Below are positions 51,280 to 63,438 of a stretch of 64,000 nucleotides of DNA, one piece after another. Location of the stretch: NCBI RefSeq assembly GCF_000337815.1, contig NZ_AOLN01000004.1:124001-188000 (forward strand), in the 5' to 3' direction. Numbering within the stretch: the first letter of the stretch is position 1; every line of letters begins with the position of its first letter. The notes beneath the pieces were generated by a model. It was not told the origin of the DNA. It made no database searches and saw only the letters and a program-made list of their open reading frames with translations. The DNA is from Haloferax mucosum ATCC BAA-1512. Lineage in GTDB: Archaea; Halobacteriota; Halobacteria; Halobacteriales; Haloferacaceae. The translations under genes and the position numbers were made by a program.

Positions 51280-51630
51280 CGCCTTGCAACTGCAACCAAC
51301 AGTAACATTTCAATCGAACGAGAGAACTCCAGGGGAGCGACCCTTCTCTTGTCACACTTGATTACACGATTTTGGGGTGTGGCGGTGTCTGTTGGTATCC
51401 GATTGGCTGTCGTCTCCGGACGTTGCTAGTCGTCGCCACCGACCGTCATCGCCGGTTGTCGCCGCTAGTTGCCACCACTAATCGCTGCCATCGAACCGCC
51501 CGTATCACGACTCTGCTCGACCTCTCGAAGCACGACCGACACGTTAAGGTACGATGACAAATGGTAGTTACGTACCACCCGCTGAACGCCGTTGGGACCC
51601 ACCAACGTTACGAACGAGAGACGCCACTCC
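51280..51630. other. Gene-free spacer
   Basis: Spacer between two regulator genes. It contains GC-rich runs and no TATA close to 51631; I see no gene in it. Confidence 0.4.
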
Positions 51631-52179
51631 ATGAGCAACCGAAGCAACAAGGACACACGCCCTTCCACGCCATCACTCGTCAGAACCGGGGTCGAAAGCG
51701 GTATCGTCAACTATCGTCGAACAGTTTTGTATCCGCTTCTCGCGTACTGTAAGCGCGTCTTTGGCGATCTCGCCGCGTCCATTCGGAGACGACTCGGTCA
51801 GGGGGTCGCCGGCGCGTCCGCTATCGACTTGTCGGCTCGCGGGACAGTGGGCGACACCCTCACGAACACAGATACCACCACGACCCATTTGGATGACGAC
51901 CCTTCCCACTCAAAACAGCGTTCCGAATCTGACGGATCGGGCATCGAAAATACACTTCCCGACGTGGACCCCGAACTGCTCGACCCCGAGCGTCGAATTT
52001 TCCAACTGCTCATCATCGAAGGCGGCCGCCTCTCGCAGGCGACGTTGGTCGAGCGGACGCGGTGGTCTGACTCGACGATTAGCCGGACGCTCTGTCAGAT
52101 GGAGTCGCAGGGTCGTATCGACCGGTATCGACTCGGCACTGGCAAGTGTGTCGTTCTTCCACAACGCCGCGAGAAGTAG
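51631..52179 (+). CDS. Winged-helix (MarR-like) regulator
   Basis: 182 residues from ATG 51631 (MSNRSNKDTRPSTPSLVRTG). The N-terminal 100 residues are basic then Thr/Asp-rich and probably disordered. The C-terminal domain, DPERRIFQLLIIEGGRLSQA then LVERTRWSDSTISRTLCQME, is a wHTH closely alike in layout to the cytoplasmic domain of the surface protein at 54607. An in-frame ATG at 51592 is the alternative start. Target genes are unknown. Confidence 0.75.
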   Translation: MSNRSNKDTRPSTPSLVRTGVESGIVNYRRTVLYPLLAYCKRVFGDLAASIRRRLGQGVAGASAIDLSARGTVGDTLTNTDTTTTHLDDDPSHSKQRSESDGSGIENTLPDVDPELLDPERRIFQLLIIEGGRLSQATLVERTRWSDSTISRTLCQMESQGRIDRYRLGTGKCVVLPQRREK

Positions 52180-52567: not shown

Positions 52568-53191
52568 CTACTCGGTCGCACCGCGATAGCCGAAAAAGCA
52601 GACGACGAGCGCGACAGGGCCGAATGCGTGTACCCGGTCGGCCGGTCCCGGGCCAAACGCGCCGATGACGAGACCCGCGATACCGAGACACACCACGGCT
52701 ACGTTCAGTAGCCCCGTCGCTGGCAGTTCACCGGTGCTCGTATCCGGTGTACTCGTGGTCGCTCCGTTCGGCTCTGTGTGTCGCTTCCGAGCTTTGACCG
52801 CCTCGGGTCTCCGGTCGAGCCGAGGAGGTCCACCTTCGAATGCCTCTCGACTCGGGTCGTCGCCATTGATTGGCTGTATCACGCCCGTCGCCGGGTCGTA
52901 TACGATTTCGCCGGCCGCATCGAGATACGGGAGGTCGAAATCGTAGAGCGTCCTGTGTATCTCCTCGTCGGTCGGAACCACCCCGTCGGTCTCCGCTCGG
53001 AACCACGCCGCGAGTTCGACGGCGAGTTCACCGATGGTGTACCGTGACCGGGGACGGTCGTTGACCAACGAAACGATGGTGTTGCGGCGCCGCGCCTCGG
53101 TGACGCCGCCGAGACGGGGTCTGTCGTCGAGCATCGGGCTAGCGTTTGTTTCGCCGCCGTCTGGGCGACGCGGTGCCCGCGATGGTACCAT
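52568..53191 (-). CDS. DUF7344-type wHTH membrane protein
   Basis: 207 residues from ATG 53191, about 25 bases after a TATA-like TTTTTATAGG. The N-terminal part TEARRRNTIVSLVNDRPRSR then YTIGELAVELAAW, with LYDFDLPYLDAAGEIVYDPA, has the pattern of the haloarchaeal DUF7344 wHTH. Two C-terminal membrane segments (LLNVAVVCLGIAGLVIGAF and VHAFGPVALVVCFFGY) anchor it. It is a membrane-bound one-component regulator candidate, related in design to the protein at 53702. Confidence 0.8.
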   Translation of the reverse strand: MVPSRAPRRPDGGETNASPMLDDRPRLGGVTEARRRNTIVSLVNDRPRSRYTIGELAVELAAWFRAETDGVVPTDEEIHRTLYDFDLPYLDAAGEIVYDPATGVIQPINGDDPSREAFEGGPPRLDRRPEAVKARKRHTEPNGATTSTPDTSTGELPATGLLNVAVVCLGIAGLVIGAFGPGPADRVHAFGPVALVVCFFGYRGATE

Positions 53192-53233
53192 TGACACGCG
53201 GCGGTACTCCACCTATAAAAATAAAACCCGGGT

Positions 53234-53251: not shown

Positions 53252-53574
53252 CCCGAAAACATCCGTGTTCGCGTTTGAAACCGTTTATCTGTCGTATAGC
53301 AATTCGGTGAGGGTTCCTTCGTTCTCACGGTAGCGTCCGAACCGTTCGACCACCACGAGACACCGGACCGATTCACGCATGTTGCGACCGCGGTTTTGGT
53401 CGCCCGGATTTCTGTGATACGGTGGGCGACTGATAACCGTTGGTCACCGATTCGAGCGCTGTCCAAGCCGAGATTCACGACGACTTATCGTTGTACTCGT
53501 CGCCGGCGAACGTGAATGGCTTAAAATTGTTGGATAATTGATGGTGTCGCAGTATGGCGATTACGTGTGGTTAA

Positions 53575-53645
53575 ACGAACTGAAACAGTTGATAAACTGA
53601 ATGGATTGCCTTAGCAGTGGACTAAACAGTTCACAACAGTTCGGA
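53575..53645. promoter_or_regulatory. Cluster of AACAGTT/AACTG half-sites
   Basis: AACTG-AAA-CAGTT (53578-53590) is a palindrome. AACAGTTC then occurs twice as a direct repeat exactly ten bases apart (53625-53632 and 53635-53642), one helical turn, and AAACTGAA is at 53594. The cluster ends about 25 bases before the TATA-like TTTATTT (53668-53674) of the gene at 53702. The rest of 53252-53574 is gene-free. Confidence 0.5.
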
Positions 53646-53701
53646 CTCACCAGAACGAAGTCCGCGATTTATTTGGGGTCGAAATAACGGTTGGAGCGAG
53701 A

Positions 53702-54301
53702 ATGTCAACCCAGGTAAACAGTCATGACAACTCACTCATCGACCAGCAGGTAGCCGCCGACGGGCAGGCCGACGAACTCGGTAAAGACGAAATCTACCAT
53801 CTCCTCCAGAACGAACGACGACGAAACGTACTTCGCTACTTACGCGACCGGGACGGTTCGGTTCAAATGCGCGATATCGCAGAGCAGGTCGCCGCGTGGG
53901 AACACGATACGACGGTGCAGGCGCTCATGTCCGACGAGCGACAGCGCGTCTACATCGCCTTGTATCAAGCACACCTCCCCAAGTTAGACGAACAGGGCGT
54001 CATCGACTACAACCAGAGTCGCGGTATCGTCGAAAAGAACCCCCGGGCGGCGGAACTCATCGACTACCTCGACCGACCGGACGACGAGGCTGACAACGCC
54101 ACCCCTAGCCGACCGTGGGGAACGTATTATCTCGTTGTCTCAGGATTGAGCGCAGTTCTCATCGGCGGTTCCGGTCTCAATCTCCCACTTATCGGGTCGA
54201 TACCGCACTTGTTCGTCGCTCTTGCGATTATGAGTGTCTACACGGTCCTCACTTTCTGGCAAGTCTTAGACGACCTCGAAATGGCCGACGGAAACGGGTA
54301 A
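53702..54301 (+). CDS. DUF7344-type wHTH membrane protein
   Basis: 199 residues. The N-terminal wHTH, LGKDEIYHLLQNERRRNVLR then MRDIAEQVAAWEHDT, with LPKLDEQGVIDYNQSRGIVE, is the DUF7344 hallmark. Two C-terminal membrane segments follow (YYLVVSGLSAVLIGGSGL and PHLFVALAIMSVYTVLTFW). It is leaderless from ATG 53702 (TATA at 53668). A cluster of repeated half-sites precedes the promoter. It is probably a membrane-tethered transcription regulator; its signal is unknown. Confidence 0.85.
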   Translation: MSTQVNSHDNSLIDQQVAADGQADELGKDEIYHLLQNERRRNVLRYLRDRDGSVQMRDIAEQVAAWEHDTTVQALMSDERQRVYIALYQAHLPKLDEQGVIDYNQSRGIVEKNPRAAELIDYLDRPDDEADNATPSRPWGTYYLVVSGLSAVLIGGSGLNLPLIGSIPHLFVALAIMSVYTVLTFWQVLDDLEMADGNG

Positions 54302-54606
54302 TTTCTCTGACACGCGGTCTCGCGCTTAGACCTATCTGTCCAGTGCTGACTCCCCGCGAGGGAACTGGACGTTCGCTTCGGCTCCCGAGACCGGACCGTC
54401 ACAGTCGTCTGTGTCCGTTTCTGCCGTGAGATTGATATTGTTGAAGCGAGGTTTGTCAAACCAGACACAACTGCTCGCCATGTGTACAGCCGTGTGTGCC
54501 CCGCCCTCCCGAGAGACAGACGTATTCGTCCCCAAGCGACCGCGAGCGACGCATCTCGGAACTCGGTTCGGCGGCGACACACAGCTACCACGCCGCGTTT
54601 GTGATA
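54302..54606. other. Gene-free spacer
   Basis: About 305 bases between the DUF7344-type gene and the Ca-repeat surface protein. I found no clear TATA at the right distance from 54607 and no RNA gene. Confidence 0.4.
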
Positions 54607-55788
54607 ATGTCCCGAAATAATACCTTGCTTCTACTTACTGTGTTCGTCGTCGTTGCGGCTATCGCCTCTGCTCCCGCGGCAGGGTCGAGAAACGTCACCG
54701 ACTTCGAAATACCCGTCGAAGGACAGTTCACCGACACCGTCCCGGTCAAACAGACCGGCGCGTCAACGTTCCTGTGGGAGTCGGAATCGAATACGCTCGC
54801 CGTGGAGTTCACTGCCGCGAACGAGTCCGAACGCTACGAGGTGTGCATCCGAAACGAGACCGGTGAGCGACTCGCCTGCCAGTACGAGCGGTCCGCCTCT
54901 CGCAACCGAGTCGTGAGATTCGAGTACGACAACCTCTCTTCGTTCTCGGAGTCGAACAACGTTACCGTGGTTCTGCGGACCGACACGTTGAGAAATCCAA
55001 AGACAATCGGTTCCGATACCATCGACATCACCGTTATTCGGCAGGCCGCCGACATCGACGGTGACGGACTCACGAACACGAACGAGGTGACGAATAATTC
55101 GTCGATGTTCCTCATCGACACGGACAGGGACGGTCTCAGCGACGGCGCTGAAGTAACAATCTACGGCACGTCCCCGACAAACACTGATACGGACTCGGAT
55201 AACCTGACAGACGCCACGGAGTTGTCGAAATCGCTGGACCCGACTGACCCCGACACCGACGGTGACGGCCTGAACGACGAACTCGAAACGAGACTGGGGA
55301 CGGAACCGGACGACGAAAATACGACGCCGATGCTCCTGTTCGCTGGCGGGACGTTCTGTGGTTTCCTCGCGGTCAGTAGTCGATGGGTTATTTGTTCGTC
55401 TCAGCGTCGCTTGACCGGCTTCTTGTCGTCGGTTCGCTCGTCGGCCGAGGCTCTCCGCTCGGACACTGCGGACGACCCGGGGCCGACCAACTCGCCTCGC
55501 ACTTCTATCTCTCGTACCCGGTCGCGCGACCGACACGTCCCGAAACAGTCCGCGCCACAGATCTCGCCCGCCGAGGCCGAGGTCCTTCAACTCCTCCGCG
55601 AAAACGAAGGCTGGGTGTATCAAAGCCGCGTCGTCGAACGCACTAACTGGTCGAAATCGAAGGTCAGCCGCCTGCTCTCGAAGATGAACGACAAGGGGAT
55701 GGTCGAAAAGGTCAGTGTCGGGCGGCAGAACATCATCGCCGAAGCGGGGTCGATGCCGGAGGCCGCGAAATCGACCTTCGACGAGTGA
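54607..55788 (+). CDS. Surface protein with thrombospondin type 3-like Ca repeats and cytoplasmic wHTH
   Basis: A 393-residue single-pass protein. Residues 1-25 are a signal peptide (NNTLLLLTVFVVVAAIASAP). An ectodomain of about 120 residues follows, with Asn-rich glycosylation-like sites. Four Ca-binding Asp-rich repeats come at 149-161 (DIDGDGLTNTNEV), 171-183 (DTDRDGLSDGAEV), about 194-206 (DTDSDNLTDATEL) and 216-228 (DTDGDGLNDELET). A membrane segment lies near 241-262. A cytoplasmic linker leads to a wHTH at about 319-385 (SPAEAEVLQLLRENEGWVYQ then NWSKSKVSRLLSKMNDKG). The layout is a one-piece transmembrane sensor-regulator. Confidence 0.85.
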   Translation: MSRNNTLLLLTVFVVVAAIASAPAAGSRNVTDFEIPVEGQFTDTVPVKQTGASTFLWESESNTLAVEFTAANESERYEVCIRNETGERLACQYERSASRNRVVRFEYDNLSSFSESNNVTVVLRTDTLRNPKTIGSDTIDITVIRQAADIDGDGLTNTNEVTNNSSMFLIDTDRDGLSDGAEVTIYGTSPTNTDTDSDNLTDATELSKSLDPTDPDTDGDGLNDELETRLGTEPDDENTTPMLLFAGGTFCGFLAVSSRWVICSSQRRLTGFLSSVRSSAEALRSDTADDPGPTNSPRTSISRTRSRDRHVPKQSAPQISPAEAEVLQLLRENEGWVYQSRVVERTNWSKSKVSRLLSKMNDKGMVEKVSVGRQNIIAEAGSMPEAAKSTFDE

Positions 55789-55827: not shown

Positions 55828-56742
55828 TTACGCCGTGTACTGGGTTTGAAGCCCCACGTAGACGTTGTAGCACAGGCCGGGAAGTTGCCGAAGATCGGGA
55901 GTCAACCCGGAACGGAGATACGCGAGTCCGCGGTCGAACCGCCCCTCTTGCAGGTAGAGCGACGCGAGCGTGTAGTGGTGCGTGCCGGTGATGTCGTAGC
56001 CGCGGGTTTCCAGTTCCACGACGTCTTCTGCAAACGTTCTGAGATAGTGCGTGTTCGCCTGTCGGACTGCGTCCGCACTCGGGCCGCCCGAGGGATATCG
56101 CCGCAAGAGCGGTTCGTCAACGTAGGCGAGTTTTCCCCGTTTGAGGACGCGAATGAGGAACTCGGTGTCCTGATACCGGTCGAACGATTCGTCGAACCCG
56201 TCGATTCGCTCGACGACGTCAGATTCGACGACGAGCGTTGACCCGGCGCTCGTGTGGAGGTCCTCCATGAGGATGTCTCTGATGAGTTTCTCGCCGCCTT
56301 CTTTCCCCTCGGTCGTGCCGTGGCGACCGACGAACGACTTGAGTCGTTCCCACGTGCGACTGGCTTCCCCGTCGTCGATGAGGGTCGTCCCGCAGTAGGC
56401 GGCGACCCACTCGTCACCCCGGCGCTCTATGGTTTCGACCTGCCGTTCCAGTTTGGTCGGTGCCCACTCGTCGTCGGAGTCGAGAAGCGCGATGTATTCC
56501 CCGGTCGCAACCTCGATTCCGGTGTTTCGGGCGGCGCTTCCGCCTCGGTTCGTCTCGTGGGCGAGGTACGTCACTCGCGGGTCGTCGTAGGACTCGACCA
56601 CGGCGTCGGTTTCGTCTCCGGAGGCGTCGTCGATGACGATCACTTCGACGTCCGACAGCGTTTGGTCGAGAGCGCTGTCGATAGCGCGCGAGAGGACATC
56701 TGCTCGGTTGTACGTGGGGATGATGACGCTCACTGTCGGCAT
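55828..56742 (-). CDS. Glycosyltransferase family 2
   Basis: A 304-residue GT-A fold enzyme. The nucleotide-binding start is VSVIIPTYNRADVLSRAIDS, VIVIDDASGDETDAVV follows, and the metal-binding region is EYIALLDSDDEW. The C-terminal part is variable. It would add a sugar from a nucleotide donor to a lipid-linked glycan on the inner membrane face. It opens the surface-glycan locus. Confidence 0.93.
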   Translation of the reverse strand: MPTVSVIIPTYNRADVLSRAIDSALDQTLSDVEVIVIDDASGDETDAVVESYDDPRVTYLAHETNRGGSAARNTGIEVATGEYIALLDSDDEWAPTKLERQVETIERRGDEWVAAYCGTTLIDDGEASRTWERLKSFVGRHGTTEGKEGGEKLIRDILMEDLHTSAGSTLVVESDVVERIDGFDESFDRYQDTEFLIRVLKRGKLAYVDEPLLRRYPSGGPSADAVRQANTHYLRTFAEDVVELETRGYDITGTHHYTLASLYLQEGRFDRGLAYLRSGLTPDLRQLPGLCYNVYVGLQTQYTA

Positions 56743-57202: not shown

Positions 57203-59116
57203 ATGAAACGGAACATGGTCACCGCGTTTTTCTCTATCGTCGGCGGACGTCTCTTCATCGTCCTGTCGTCGGTCGTGTTGACGCCGCTTCTCATCACGAC
57301 TCTCGGATTCGAACTCTATGGGCGGTACAGCACTCTCACAGCCGTCTTCGGTATCTCCACGATTCTCATGAGTTCGGGCATCAACAGCGGCGCTCGAAAA
57401 TACCTCGCCGAGGAACGGTCGTTCCGCGACTGGAAAAGCAACGTGTTCGGTTACTACCTCCGTCTCGGAACTGTCCTCGCCGTGCTGACGGCCATCGCGT
57501 TCGTCGTCGCGGCCCGGTTCGGTCTCGTCGCTACGTATCTCGGTCCCGAGTACGTGGTCGGATTCTACGGGCTGGCAGGACTCACCATCGCAACGCAGTT
57601 CCGCGAGTACGCCCGTCGGTCCCTGATGGGCCTCAAACAGGAACACCGCTCGGAGCCGTTGCGCGTGCTCACCAAAGTCGGGAGTCGCCTCACGCTCATC
57701 GGCATCGCCTTTCTCGGCTTCGAAATCGGCGGCCTGCTCGTCGGTCTCATCGTCGTCAATTCGCTCGTCGCGGTGCTCGCGCTGTGGTGGCTCCGCGAAA
57801 GCGTCTCGCTTCGCGGCGCGTTGACCGGGCCGCCAGACGGCTTTCCGACCGGAGAGCTGTTCAATTTCAACCATCTGTCGGTCGTCTACATGCTGTTTCT
57901 CACGTCGCTGTATCACGTTGACGTGCTGATGCTCGCATCTACGGTTACGGAGACGCAGGTCGGCTACTACAAGTCCGCGCTGGTCATAAATCAGTTCCTC
58001 TGGGTGATTCCGCGCTCGATTCAGTCCATGCTCATCCAGTCCGTCTCGGACCTGTGGGCCGACGACCGAATCGAGCAGATCAACGAAATCGCCTCGCGCG
58101 TCACGCGTTACGGGATGCTCGTCGTGCTCCTGTTGTCGCTCGGATTGGGCGCGCTTGCGAGCGATTTCGTGCCGATGTATCTCGGTTCGGGGTCGATGCC
58201 GGTTGTCACCCCGCTTCTCATTCTCTTGCCCGGGACTGTCGGTTTTGCCGTCGTCAGGCCCGTGCTGGCGATTAGCCACGCGAAAGGAGACCTGAAACCA
58301 CTCATCGCCGCCACCGGTGCCGCGGCACTGTTGAACCTCGGACTGAACGCGTCTTTGATTCCACACTACGGGATTCCCGGCGCGGCAATCGCTACGACCA
58401 TCGGCTACAGTTCGCTCCCCGTCTTCAACCTCGTAAGCGCCCGTCACCTCGGGTTCAAACCGTTTGTCGGCGCCAGATTGGGACGCGTGGGTGCGACCGC
58501 GGCCCTCTCTTCTGTGCCTATCTTCCTCCTGTCGAACGCCATCCAAAACAGCCTCGTCGCTCTCCTTTTCGTTCCGCCGGTCGGGCTGTTCGTCTTCGTC
58601 GCGGTCGCGTTCGCCATCGGCGCGGTCGATATCGGTGAGGTGCTGGACGTGATAGAATCGCTTCCGGACCCCGTCGGTTCGTACGCCGCCGCTGTGAACG
58701 AACGCCGCGGCGGATTGAGAGCAAGTCGCATTCAGCCGACGGACCGCGAGCCGTGGACCGAACGACACAAACATACGCTCCATCGCGTGCTTCTCATCAT
58801 TGGCGTCCTCCTTTCGATTTTAGGCGTCGCGCTCGCGGTCGGCGTTCCCGGAACCAACATCGGCGCATCTCCGGATAGTCACACTGGCGCTTCACAGGTA
58901 CCCACCACGGGACCGACCGCGGAGACGGTGGCCGCACCGGTGACCGAACCGGTGGCGACGACCAACGTGAGCACTAACACGGCTACCGTAGTCACATCCG
59001 AGCGGGCGTCCTCGTCGGCGACGACTACTGGACCGCCGCGAGCGTCCGTTTTCGAGTCGCTTCCAGAACGTCAACGTAGAGGTCCGCTATCTCTTCACAG
59101 ACGTATTCCCACGTGA
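57203..59116 (+). CDS. Polysaccharide flippase (Wzx/MOP-superfamily, RfbX-like)
   Basis: A 637-residue membrane protein with about 14 hydrophobic segments in the first 490 residues (FFSIVGGRLFIVLSSVVLTP first). It fits the MOP flippases that move lipid-linked glycans across the membrane. After a further membrane segment (LLIIGVLLSILGVALAVGV, near 530) the C-terminus is a Thr/Ser-rich tail of about 80 residues (TTGPTAETVAAPVTEPVATT), unusual for flippases and perhaps an extracellular glycosylated stalk. Its last 92 bases overlap the convergent GT4 gene, so the tail end may be less reliable. Confidence 0.88.
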   Translation: MKRNMVTAFFSIVGGRLFIVLSSVVLTPLLITTLGFELYGRYSTLTAVFGISTILMSSGINSGARKYLAEERSFRDWKSNVFGYYLRLGTVLAVLTAIAFVVAARFGLVATYLGPEYVVGFYGLAGLTIATQFREYARRSLMGLKQEHRSEPLRVLTKVGSRLTLIGIAFLGFEIGGLLVGLIVVNSLVAVLALWWLRESVSLRGALTGPPDGFPTGELFNFNHLSVVYMLFLTSLYHVDVLMLASTVTETQVGYYKSALVINQFLWVIPRSIQSMLIQSVSDLWADDRIEQINEIASRVTRYGMLVVLLLSLGLGALASDFVPMYLGSGSMPVVTPLLILLPGTVGFAVVRPVLAISHAKGDLKPLIAATGAAALLNLGLNASLIPHYGIPGAAIATTIGYSSLPVFNLVSARHLGFKPFVGARLGRVGATAALSSVPIFLLSNAIQNSLVALLFVPPVGLFVFVAVAFAIGAVDIGEVLDVIESLPDPVGSYAAAVNERRGGLRASRIQPTDREPWTERHKHTLHRVLLIIGVLLSILGVALAVGVPGTNIGASPDSHTGASQVPTTGPTAETVAAPVTEPVATTNVSTNTATVVTSERASSSATTTGPPRASVFESLPERQRRGPLSLHRRIPT

Positions 59117-60242
59117 ATTTGTTGGCGTAAGATTCGATGGCGTCGGCGTCCCAGTCTCGACGGAGTGCCGTGACCACGGCGTCGCCGAGTTCGTCGTGGG
59201 CCTCCGGTCCATCGACGAGGAGTCCGTACTCCTCGCTTGCGATGACCTCTTCGCTTCCGCCGTTTTCGGTGGCGACGACGGGCGTTCCGCAGGCCATCGC
59301 TTCCAGTTGGACGACACCGAAGCTCTCGCTGTAACTTGGCAGGACGAACACGTCTGCGGCGTTCATCCAGTCGTTCAGCGTCTCCGATTCGACGTATCCG
59401 AGGAGGTCGGTTCGGTCGGCGATACCGAGGCTCTCGGCGAGCGATTCGAGTTCGTCACGCACCCGTCCCTGTCCGCCGATGACGAGCCGCGCGTCCGGCT
59501 CGGACTCGTGGACGCGGGTCATCGCGTGCATGAGGTGTTGGAACCCCTTTCTCGGCTTCAGTGTCCCGAGCGCGAACACGAGGGGTGTGTCGGCGTCGAT
59601 ACCGAGTCGGTCGCACGCGTCGTCGGAGTCGAGTCGTTCGAACACGTCCGTATCGTAGCCGTTGGAGATGTGGACGACGTCGTCGTTGTAGGCTTCGAGT
59701 TTCGAGCGGTCGCGGCGGTTGACGCGGATGAGTCGGTCCGCGTTGGTCCACGCTTCGCGCAGGCGCTCGTTTTCGGACTGGAGTTGCGTCTCGAACCAGT
59801 CGCGGTTCGCGTGGACGGTCAGGACATAGGGGATGTCGAGTGCCGCTTTCAGTCGCGCGCCGACATAGCCCGCGGTCCACGACATGTGACAGTGAATCAG
59901 GTCGAACGAGACGGGATACGATTCGAGTTGGTTTTCGACCTTTCTGGCGTGTTGTCGTCCGAGCAGGTGCTCGCGCTGAACGTCCCACGGGAGATACCAC
60001 AGGGGCGTCCCGATGACGCGGACGTTGTCCGGAGCCTCCGAGTCGATTTTCGCGTCTTTTCCGAACCCCGTCGCGCCGTCTATCGGCAGACGCGACGCCA
60101 CGTCTGCGAACCCGTTGTACCTGACACAGACGTGAACGGTGTTGAAATACTCCGCGAGAATATCGACTTGCGACTTGACGAAGTGTTTGTATCCGTGTGA
60201 AATGACGAGGAGGTTCTTATCGGCTAATCGGTTGTGGTCCAT
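59025..60242 (-). CDS. Glycosyltransferase family 4 (GT-B fold)
   Basis: A 405-residue enzyme. The N-lobe has KNLLVISHGYKHFVKSQVD and FDLIHCHMSWTAG. The donor-binding C-lobe has FALGTLKPRKGFQHLMHAM, DARLVIGGQGRVRDELESLA, DVFVLPSYSESFGVVQLEAM and the E-x7-E motif (ESFGVVQLE). It is a retaining transferase for surface glycan assembly. The stop lies inside the convergent flippase frame. Confidence 0.93.
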   Translation of the reverse strand: MDHNRLADKNLLVISHGYKHFVKSQVDILAEYFNTVHVCVRYNGFADVASRLPIDGATGFGKDAKIDSEAPDNVRVIGTPLWYLPWDVQREHLLGRQHARKVENQLESYPVSFDLIHCHMSWTAGYVGARLKAALDIPYVLTVHANRDWFETQLQSENERLREAWTNADRLIRVNRRDRSKLEAYNDDVVHISNGYDTDVFERLDSDDACDRLGIDADTPLVFALGTLKPRKGFQHLMHAMTRVHESEPDARLVIGGQGRVRDELESLAESLGIADRTDLLGYVESETLNDWMNAADVFVLPSYSESFGVVQLEAMACGTPVVATENGGSEEVIASEEYGLLVDGPEAHDELGDAVVTALRRDWDADAIESYANKFTWEYVCEEIADLYVDVLEATRKRTLAAVQ

Positions 60243-62043: not shown

Positions 62044-62159
62044 CGGACGCCGACGCGAGAACCGGCTATCTGAGCGACGGTGCCGTCGCGGGCGACGACC
62101 CGAGACGGCTCGCCGTCGGTGACGACAGCCTCGACAGGGAGAGCGGAATCCGTGTCTGA
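62040..62159 (+). CDS. 39-residue acidic peptide
   Basis: ATG 62040 overlaps the previous stop by four bases. The product (MTDADARTGYLSDGAVAGDD then DSLDRESGIRV) is acidic like haloarchaeal proteins. Its end overlaps the GTG start of the dehydrogenase by eight bases. It could be a true small protein or simply a coupling frame. Confidence 0.45.
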   Translation: MTDADARTGYLSDGAVAGDDPRRLAVGDDSLDRESGIRV

Positions 62160-63438
62160 AACGGTCTGTGTCGTCGGGTTGGGCTACGTCGGACTCCCGC
62201 TCGCACTCGAATTCGACCGCGTCGGAAAGTCGGTCATCGGCTACGACGTGGACCCCGAAACGGTCTCCGCGCTCGCCGACGGAATCGACCCCACGGGCGA
62301 CGTGACAGACGAGCGCGTTGCGTCCGCTGACGCGTTGTTCACGACCGACCCGGCGCATCTCTCGGACGCGGATTTCGTCATCGTCACCGTCCCGACGCCG
62401 GTCGATAGCATGGAGAACCCCGACCTTCGGTTCGTCGAATCGGCGGCCGAGACAATCGGCGCGCACATCTCGCCGGGGACGACCGTCGTCCTCGAATCGA
62501 CGGTCTACCCGGGTGCGACCGAGTCCGTCCTCGTGCCCGCGCTCGAATCCGACTCGGCGCACACCGTCGGCGAAGACGTCTTCGTCGGCTACTCGCCCGA
62601 ACGTGCCTCACCCGGTGAGACGGGTCGCGGCGTCCGCGACGTCGTGAAGGTCGTCGGCGCGAACAGCGAGCGCGTCCGCGACGAGCTCGCTGAACTCTAC
62701 GGGAGCATCGTCGATGCCGGTATCCATCGAGCGCCCGACATCGAGACGGCGGAGGCGTCGAAAGTCATCGAAAACGTCCAGCGCGACATGAATATCGCGC
62801 TCGTCAACGAACTGGCCATCGCCTGCGACCACATGGGGCTGACGACCGACGATGTCCTCGAAGCCGCAGGCACGAAATGGAACTTCCACGACGGCTACTC
62901 GCCGGGGTTCGTCGGCGGCCACTGCATCCCCGTAGACCCGTTTTATCTCACCTACCGGTCCAAACGCGAGGGCTTCTCGCCGAAACTCGTCCTCCAAGCA
63001 CGCGAGATTAACGAGTACGTTCCGGTTCACGCCGCCCGAAAGACGGTTAAGACTATCAACGACGCCGGGCGTGTGCTCCGCGACACGCGGCTGTTAGTCC
63101 TCGGACTCGCGTACAAACCCGGCGTCGGCGACATCAGAAGTTCCGAAGTCGGAACGATGCTGGAGAAACTCGACGAGTTCGACATCGACTTCGTGGGGTA
63201 CGACCCGCACGCCGACCCGGAAACGTCCCGCGACGAGTTCGATATCGACGTGACCGAGTCGGTCGAGTTCGAGGCGTACGACGGTGTCGTCGTTGCAACC
63301 GCCCACGACGAGTTCGCCGCGTACGACCTCGAAGCGATGGCGACAAGTCTCGGGTCGAACCCGGTCATGATCGACGTGGCCGACGTGTTCGACGCCGACG
63401 AAGCGGCCAGTCAGGGCTTCCACTACGCCCAGTTGTGA
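62152..63438 (+). CDS. UDP-sugar (nucleotide sugar) dehydrogenase, WecC/UgdH type
   Basis: A 428-residue enzyme from GTG 62152 (SETVCVVGLGYVGLPLALEF). The NAD motif is GLGYVG (9-14), EASKVIENVQRDMNIALVNE is the central helix and the catalytic Cys lies in GFVGGHCIPVDPFYLTYRSK. It oxidises the C6 hydroxyl of a UDP-sugar to a uronic acid in two NAD-linked steps. The IPVDP version of the Cys motif leans to UDP-ManNAc/GlcNAc-type enzymes rather than UDP-glucose, but this is not decisive. It supplies a uronate for surface glycans (S-layer glycoprotein or exopolysaccharide). Confidence 0.92.
   Translation: MSETVCVVGLGYVGLPLALEFDRVGKSVIGYDVDPETVSALADGIDPTGDVTDERVASADALFTTDPAHLSDADFVIVTVPTPVDSMENPDLRFVESAAETIGAHISPGTTVVLESTVYPGATESVLVPALESDSAHTVGEDVFVGYSPERASPGETGRGVRDVVKVVGANSERVRDELAELYGSIVDAGIHRAPDIETAEASKVIENVQRDMNIALVNELAIACDHMGLTTDDVLEAAGTKWNFHDGYSPGFVGGHCIPVDPFYLTYRSKREGFSPKLVLQAREINEYVPVHAARKTVKTINDAGRVLRDTRLLVLGLAYKPGVGDIRSSEVGTMLEKLDEFDIDFVGYDPHADPETSRDEFDIDVTESVEFEAYDGVVVATAHDEFAAYDLEAMATSLGSNPVMIDVADVFDADEAASQGFHYAQL

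Follow-up and report, generated by a model that had tools for sequence, protein, structure and literature searches.

A putative haloarchaeal membrane-bound one-component regulator with TSP3-type repeats and a C-terminal DUF7343 winged helix, paired with DUF7344 in surface-glycan loci

The bacterial regulators ToxR and CadC link the outside of the cell to transcription without a kinase: a single membrane span joins an external sensor to a cytoplasmic winged helix, which in both is of the OmpR type and N-terminal. Such kinase-free surface-to-gene signalling is little known in archaea, where ArnR is the main citable example; to our knowledge ArnR has no TSP3 repeats. ArnR and ArnR1 of Sulfolobus acidocaldarius are membrane-bound one-component regulators that act on cell-surface structures (PMC6396743, PMC13286277) and bear their HTH in the N-terminal region (PMC13286277). 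A literature search, with most subscription journals outside its reach, found no paper on DUF7343, on DUF7344, on TSP3 in haloarchaea or on the DNA motif described below. Here we describe a gene in the 64,000-nucleotide stretch of Haloferax mucosum DNA that was analysed (the window). Comparative sequence analysis makes it fairly probable that its product is a haloarchaeal membrane-bound one-component regulator that reads the cell surface, binds a direct repeat and tunes surface glycans. The gene and the parts of its product are as follows.

54607..55788, + strand: the TSP3-DUF7343 membrane regulator, 393 aa, internal stops absent
54607..54681, + strand: N-terminal hydrophobic segment and predicted signal peptide, residues 1-25 (hydropathy)
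54688..55047, + strand: ectodomain of an unnamed family, residues 28-147, with conserved Cys80 and Cys91
55051..55311, + strand: four TSP3-type DxDxD repeats, about residues 149-235 (TSP3_bac match, shuffle test)
55324..55392, + strand: membrane segment, about residues 240-262 (hydropathy 1.38, alignment to the stronger segments of relatives)
55393..55560, + strand: variable cytoplasmic linker, unconserved in the alignment of relatives
55561..55740, + strand: DUF7343 winged helix with the WSKSKVSRLLS region (Pfam)

A first-pass annotation had read a signal peptide, an ectodomain, four repeats, one membrane segment and a winged helix in one chain, and Pfam, hydropathy, the single ORF and the relatives all agree with that reading. 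The window protein matches TSP3_bac (PF18884) with an E-value of 1.6e-7 and 31.5 bits, above the curated cut-off of 25, and DUF7343 (PF24034) at residues 323-378 with an E-value of 5.6e-22 and 77.8 bits, where the curated cut-off is 27.6. By score it belongs to these two families and not to the DUF7345 class; PF24036 (DUF7345) was not found in the window protein, and the 16 families listed for 75 relatives do not include it. The repeats start at residues 149, 171, 194 and 216, and the pattern D.D.D[GNS]hxD has four matches where 0.0018 would be expected from 20,000 shuffles of the protein. Hydropathy peaks at 2.47 over residues 7-25. The second hydrophobic segment is weak (residues 240-258, same peak as listed above) and aligns with more hydrophobic segments of relatives (1.5-3.2); beyond residue 300 hydropathy never exceeds 0.22. 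Within the winged helix W348, S349, S351, K352, V353, S354 and R355 are invariant in 24 relatives, as is the Cys pair of the ectodomain. No Pfam family covers residues 28-147. A PDB sequence search with the ectodomain profile gave a best E-value of 0.42 (a flagellin), and with the whole protein gave no match; AlphaFold models of the full protein (pLDDT 42) and of the ectodomain plus repeats with a Haladaptatus relative (pLDDT 37) were unusable. Ectodomain, membrane segment and DNA-binding domain are thus found in a single chain, the composition that defines a one-component regulator.

Such a chain could in principle be an artefact, a frame error near 55340 having fused a surface protein with a separate regulator, and the first-pass annotation had named this as the observation that would undo it. 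Codon-position GC is indeed atypical in the linker (55357-55506), but on either side of it the sequence is conserved in the main frame, and the protein aligns end to end with single ORFs of relatives. Because both alternative frames reach a stop close to 55340 and 74 of 75 relatives bear the same fusion, the error is refuted, an artefactual fusion is virtually impossible, and repeats and winged helix lie in a single protein. The survey of this domain order across haloarchaea that had been suggested recovered 76 ectodomain ORFs, one of which (L067) was dropped as a duplicate; TSP3_bac is matched in all 75 distinct ORFs and DUF7343 in 74. The sole gene without DUF7343 in the same chain (L050, 9030-10600) is split into two overlapping ORFs, its winged helix being encoded by the next ORF. 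Part of the survey loci were picked by whole-protein matches and 42 others by the ectodomain profile alone; all 42 of the latter carry both domains.

The family is widespread. Searched with the whole protein, 131 of 148 genomes from the same family gave a match, mostly to the C-terminal end only, and the ectodomain-only profile (A2) found matches in 61 of 391 Halobacteria genomes and 25 of 86 genera. A contig scan with the whole-protein alignment (A1) was dominated by bacterial TSP3 proteins, and the Haladaptatus litoreus protein (L072) is the sole full-length named relative used from it. Viral contigs searched for relatives of the regulator yielded none. A divergent member of 624 aa (L063, 8478-10352) has TSP3 repeats and DUF7343, its ectodomain falls below the profile threshold, and a DUF7344 gene adjoins it.

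Topology was examined statistically in 74 proteins, with sequon expectations taken from shuffles. N-glycosylation sequons show an approximately threefold excess in the ectodomain (374 seen, 118 expected), number 106 in the repeats (84 expected) and are not enriched past the membrane segment (32 seen, 41 expected). Around the membrane segment, K/R is more abundant on the inside in 53 of the 74 and equal in 8. These two statistics support the earlier proposal that the repeats lie outside and the winged helix inside, and it is from sequon and charge counts that the one-component arrangement, ectodomain outside and winged helix inside, is predicted.

The regulator had been noted to lie beside a surface-glycan locus, and this holds: genes for GT2, a flippase, GT4 and a UDP-sugar dehydrogenase are all in the window, together with further genes of regulator-like families.

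51592..52179, + strand: small DUF7343 gene without predicted membrane segment (PF24034, E 1.4e-14)
52568..53212, - strand: second DUF7344 gene (PF24035, E 1.4e-8)
53702..54301, + strand: DUF7344 gene, the upstream partner, with a winged helix and two C-terminal hydrophobic segments (PF24035, E 1.4e-30)
55828..56742, - strand: glycosyltransferase family 2 (GT2; PF00535)
57203..59116, + strand: polysaccharide flippase (PF13440)
59025..60242, - strand: glycosyltransferase group 1 (GT4; PF00534)
62080..63438, + strand: UDP-glucose/GDP-mannose dehydrogenase (PF03721, PF00984, PF03720)

This setting recurs. When 37 representatives (60% identity clusters) were compared with 40 regions drawn at random from the same contigs at a radius of 10 kb, a glycan-type gene was present near 22 of the 37 versus 7 of the 40 (Fisher p 1.7e-4), and DUF7344 near 24 of the 37 versus 2 of the 40 (Fisher p 1.9e-8). 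Across all 75 loci, 39 have both glycan genes and DUF7344, 4 DUF7344 only, 3 glycan genes only and 29 neither; surface-glycan loci house about half of the ectodomain-family genes. In 34 of the 75 a DUF7344 gene lies within 1 kb upstream of the regulator on the same strand. On a tree of 74 members the glycan label requires 9 changes and DUF7344 8; a test for association between the two beyond descent had only 5 usable independent pairs and gave no significance. DUF7344 itself is apparently a large, unstudied regulator-like family: each of ten genomes examined has between 2 and 39 matches.

The window's gene order is largely retained on plasmids of Haloferax mediterranei, H. gibbonsii and H. larsenii. 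The ortholog in H. mediterranei ATCC 33500 (plasmid pHME505, E6P09_RS17105, WP_231512969.1) aligns over 94% of the query at 51% identity and stands in the same order with GT2, flippase and GT genes, its annotation being merely that of a helix-turn-helix protein. It differs in having six DxDxD repeats rather than four, and in that locus DegT aminotransferase and Gfo/Idh genes lie upstream; these two genes occur in the loci of Haloferax relatives and are absent from the window. The operator region described next is flanked by two DUF7344 genes, and in Haloferax relatives the DegT and Gfo/Idh genes lie between them. In their accessible parts, the papers on H. mediterranei exopolysaccharide (PMC6759562, PMC8387396, PMC9943897) do not place this locus. 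The conserved neighbourhood suggests that the regulator may control the adjoining glycan genes.

In a footprint of 14 orthologs, TGAAACAGT recurs as direct repeats ahead of the DUF7344 gene, a TATA-like element comes next, and a separate conserved box lies further downstream, ahead of the regulator itself.

53571..53640, + strand: predicted operator with two tandem-repeat sites, 53571-53589 and 53622-53640 (footprint, matrix)
53668..53676, + strand: conserved TATA-like TTTATTTGG ahead of the DUF7344 start (footprint, sequence)
54425..54440, + strand: conserved box CGTGAGATTnATATTG upstream of the regulator (footprint of 14 orthologs)
54480..54620, + strand: possible upstream ORF of 46 codons that overlaps the regulator start (ortholog comparison)

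The box is the only match to its sequence in the window, 0.9 being expected at 3 mismatches. An ATG follows it by 48-52 bp in 11 of the 14 orthologs (52 bp in the window), and in 11 of the 14 the ORF opened by that ATG terminates at or just beyond the regulator start; in L040 this upstream ATG shares the reading frame of the regulator.

The motif of the predicted operator is the direct repeat TGAAACRGTnTGMAACRGT, with a 10-bp period, and AACAGTTC occurs in the window at 53625 and 53635. A tandem arrangement spaced by one helical turn is reminiscent of the sites bound by OmpR/PhoB-type winged helices. The motif stands before the DUF7344 gene or, in some lineages where DUF7344 is absent, before the regulator itself. 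The window sites were found by matrix, the consensus itself having no match in the organism's own genome even with 3 mismatches allowed; the 64-kb window has no other site of at least 19.5 bits, and none before GT2 or the flippase. A held-out matrix was built solely on Haloferax-type clade sites, with the 15 loci of that clade left out of scoring. At 18 bits or more it detected sites in (i) 9 of 32 DUF7344 promoters, the other 23 falling below; (ii) 4 of 31 promoters of regulators without a local DUF7344 (L188, L222, L205, L038), the other 27 falling below; (iii) 2 of 29 promoters of regulators with a local DUF7344; (iv) 12 of 757 other promoters of the same loci and 1 of 641 control promoters. 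A broad matrix from 11 seed sites of several lineages, which is partly circular for the window, promoter and permutation scores, gave 56 matches in 1137 promoter regions versus 3 in 644 control regions, while 30 permuted matrices averaged 1.7 and gave at most 5; with the regulators' own promoters excluded it gave 23 matches versus a permuted mean of 1.2 (at most 4), divergent genes being counted twice.

Genome-wide, with one mismatch allowed, 70 sites occur in 39 of 59 regulator-bearing genomes (reversed pattern, 1), and 11 sites in 9 of 46 genomes taken as regulator-less, that is, not among the 61 ectodomain-profile matches (reversed pattern, 0). DUF7343 is present in 7 of 66 windows around motif sites, DUF7344 in 21 and either in 28; controls gave 0 and 1 of 120. 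Sites also lie near phosphoglucomutase genes (two lineages), a nucleotide-sugar epimerase gene, a GT4 gene and UbiA. The motif is found as well beside HSP20-type genes of one haloarchaeal genus (L355, L361), a hint at additional targets or a different binder, and some sites adjoin other unrelated genes. A second TSP3-DUF7343 protein of the same genome (L038, G000:C12:34380-35933) lies beside a MacB/FtsX-type ABC transporter, and its 18-bit motif site is 217 bp upstream. We read the direct repeat as the putative operator of a circuit formed by the regulator and DUF7344.

We propose that the ectodomain would be held off the membrane by a TSP3 stalk, stiffened by calcium and varying in length, which may bridge the space beneath the S-layer, and would read the state of the surface, whether a matrix sugar, the S-layer or a partner protein. 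The signal would then pass to the cytoplasmic DUF7343 domain, which would bind the TGAAACRGTnTGMAACRGT repeats, above all in the promoter of the DUF7344 pair to which it belongs, as feedback, and, in some lineages, also near sugar-metabolism genes. Surface-glycan output would thereby be tuned from the membrane, with no kinase. Sensing, transmission through the membrane, DNA binding and feedback are steps that we infer from domain order, conservation, topology signals, the pairing with DUF7344 in glycan loci and the repeat before the pair, all of them sequence observations.

TSP3 repeats bind calcium, and the first-pass annotation had the protein couple extracellular Ca, Mg or salt state, or surface contact, to DNA binding. 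Were the repeats themselves the sensor, folding on Ca (or Mg) binding and relaying their state to the winged helix, the invariance of the Asp positions of three repeats in 24 relatives and the universal TSP3_bac match (75/75) would be expected. The DxDxD count, however, lies anywhere between 0 (in four proteins, by the strict pattern) and 11 and differs even between relatives of about 50% identity (4 in the window protein, 6 in most orthologs), and besides the repeats there is always an ectodomain with a conserved Cys pair. The variable repeat number is explained by a calcium-stiffened stalk no less readily than by a sensor, and it favours a stalk with the ectodomain as reader; a sensor made of the repeats is rather unlikely. 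The part of the earlier claim that concerned Ca, Mg or salt sensing by the TSP3 repeats is not supported, and ion sensing of some kind is possible. At the opposite extreme the protein would be a surface stalk, its winged helix having lost the ability to bind DNA. Surface proteins often have TSP3 stalks, and many TSP3 proteins were matched in the contig scan, but the winged-helix region is among the best-conserved parts and the DNA motif tracks the regulator gene, which makes this very unlikely; the divergent L063, considered as an example of a TSP3 protein without a winged helix, was rejected on finding DUF7343 in it, and this reading loses its example. Regulated proteolysis, in which the membrane segment is cut and linker and winged helix are freed to reach DNA, would suit the weak membrane segment and the long, variable linker. 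Protease families are nevertheless absent among the annotated neighbour clusters, and we consider this route improbable.

Who binds the repeat can also be viewed differently: DUF7344 would be the binder and the TSP3 protein a partner controlling it at the membrane. The repeat mostly stands before DUF7344, and eight motif windows hold DUF7344 with no TSP3 ectodomain within 1.5 kb (L314, L315, L318, L321, L330, L343, L365, L367), so DUF7344 may be the binder. Against this, with the clade matrix all six DUF7344 promoters next to a regulator reach at least 19.4 bits versus 0 of 32 elsewhere reaching 15, these 38 being the best-scoring of many DUF7344 genes in ten genomes and the six including two of the matrix training clade (L267, L290). 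The repeat also precedes the four regulators without a local DUF7344 listed above, and in three regulator-less genomes of one genus it precedes a DUF7343 membrane protein, of the DUF7345 type where scanned (L342). A motif site is found with three of 21 DUF7343 membrane-protein entries and with none of the other 18, in a set that includes TSP3-type proteins (L063, L211 and the split half L020) and short ones (L041, L074). Binding by DUF7344 is, on balance, possible but doubtful. Both proteins might instead act together, TSP3-DUF7343 and DUF7344, each with a winged helix at the membrane, forming a two-part transmembrane switch that uses a calcium stalk of tuned length to read the S-layer or matrix and acts back on surface-polysaccharide synthesis through the 10-bp-period repeats; we put this forward tentatively, as a somewhat unlikely elaboration. 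If true, it would be a kinase-free surface-to-gene circuit across several haloarchaeal families.

The one-component regulator that we prefer has numerous relatives, a predicted operator, a likely partner protein and an ortholog in a cultured species, so haloarchaeal surface-glycan regulation becomes testable, with this protein as a candidate for a direct control link from cell surface to gene. Like ArnR and ArnR1, it is archaeal and membrane-bound with its DNA-binding part in the same chain. It falls outside the ArnR type in that its winged helix is C-terminal, whereas ArnR bears its HTH in the N-terminal region, and its proposed targets are glycans, whereas those of ArnR are the archaellum and pili. 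Like ToxR and CadC, it would have one span, a sensor outside, a winged helix inside and no kinase; unlike them, it ends in a C-terminal DUF7343 domain with MarR/IclR-like matches, and Trans_reg_C, the OmpR-type domain of ToxR and CadC, is absent among its Pfam matches at E<=0.1. The haloarchaeal DUF7345-DUF7343 membrane proteins (PF24036 plus PF24034) share with it an ectodomain, hydrophobic segments and a C-terminal DUF7343, but their ectodomain is DUF7345 and a TSP3 match was found in none of five scanned. Set beside these systems, what appears to be new here is the unnamed ectodomain family, the pairing with DUF7344 and the predicted operator.
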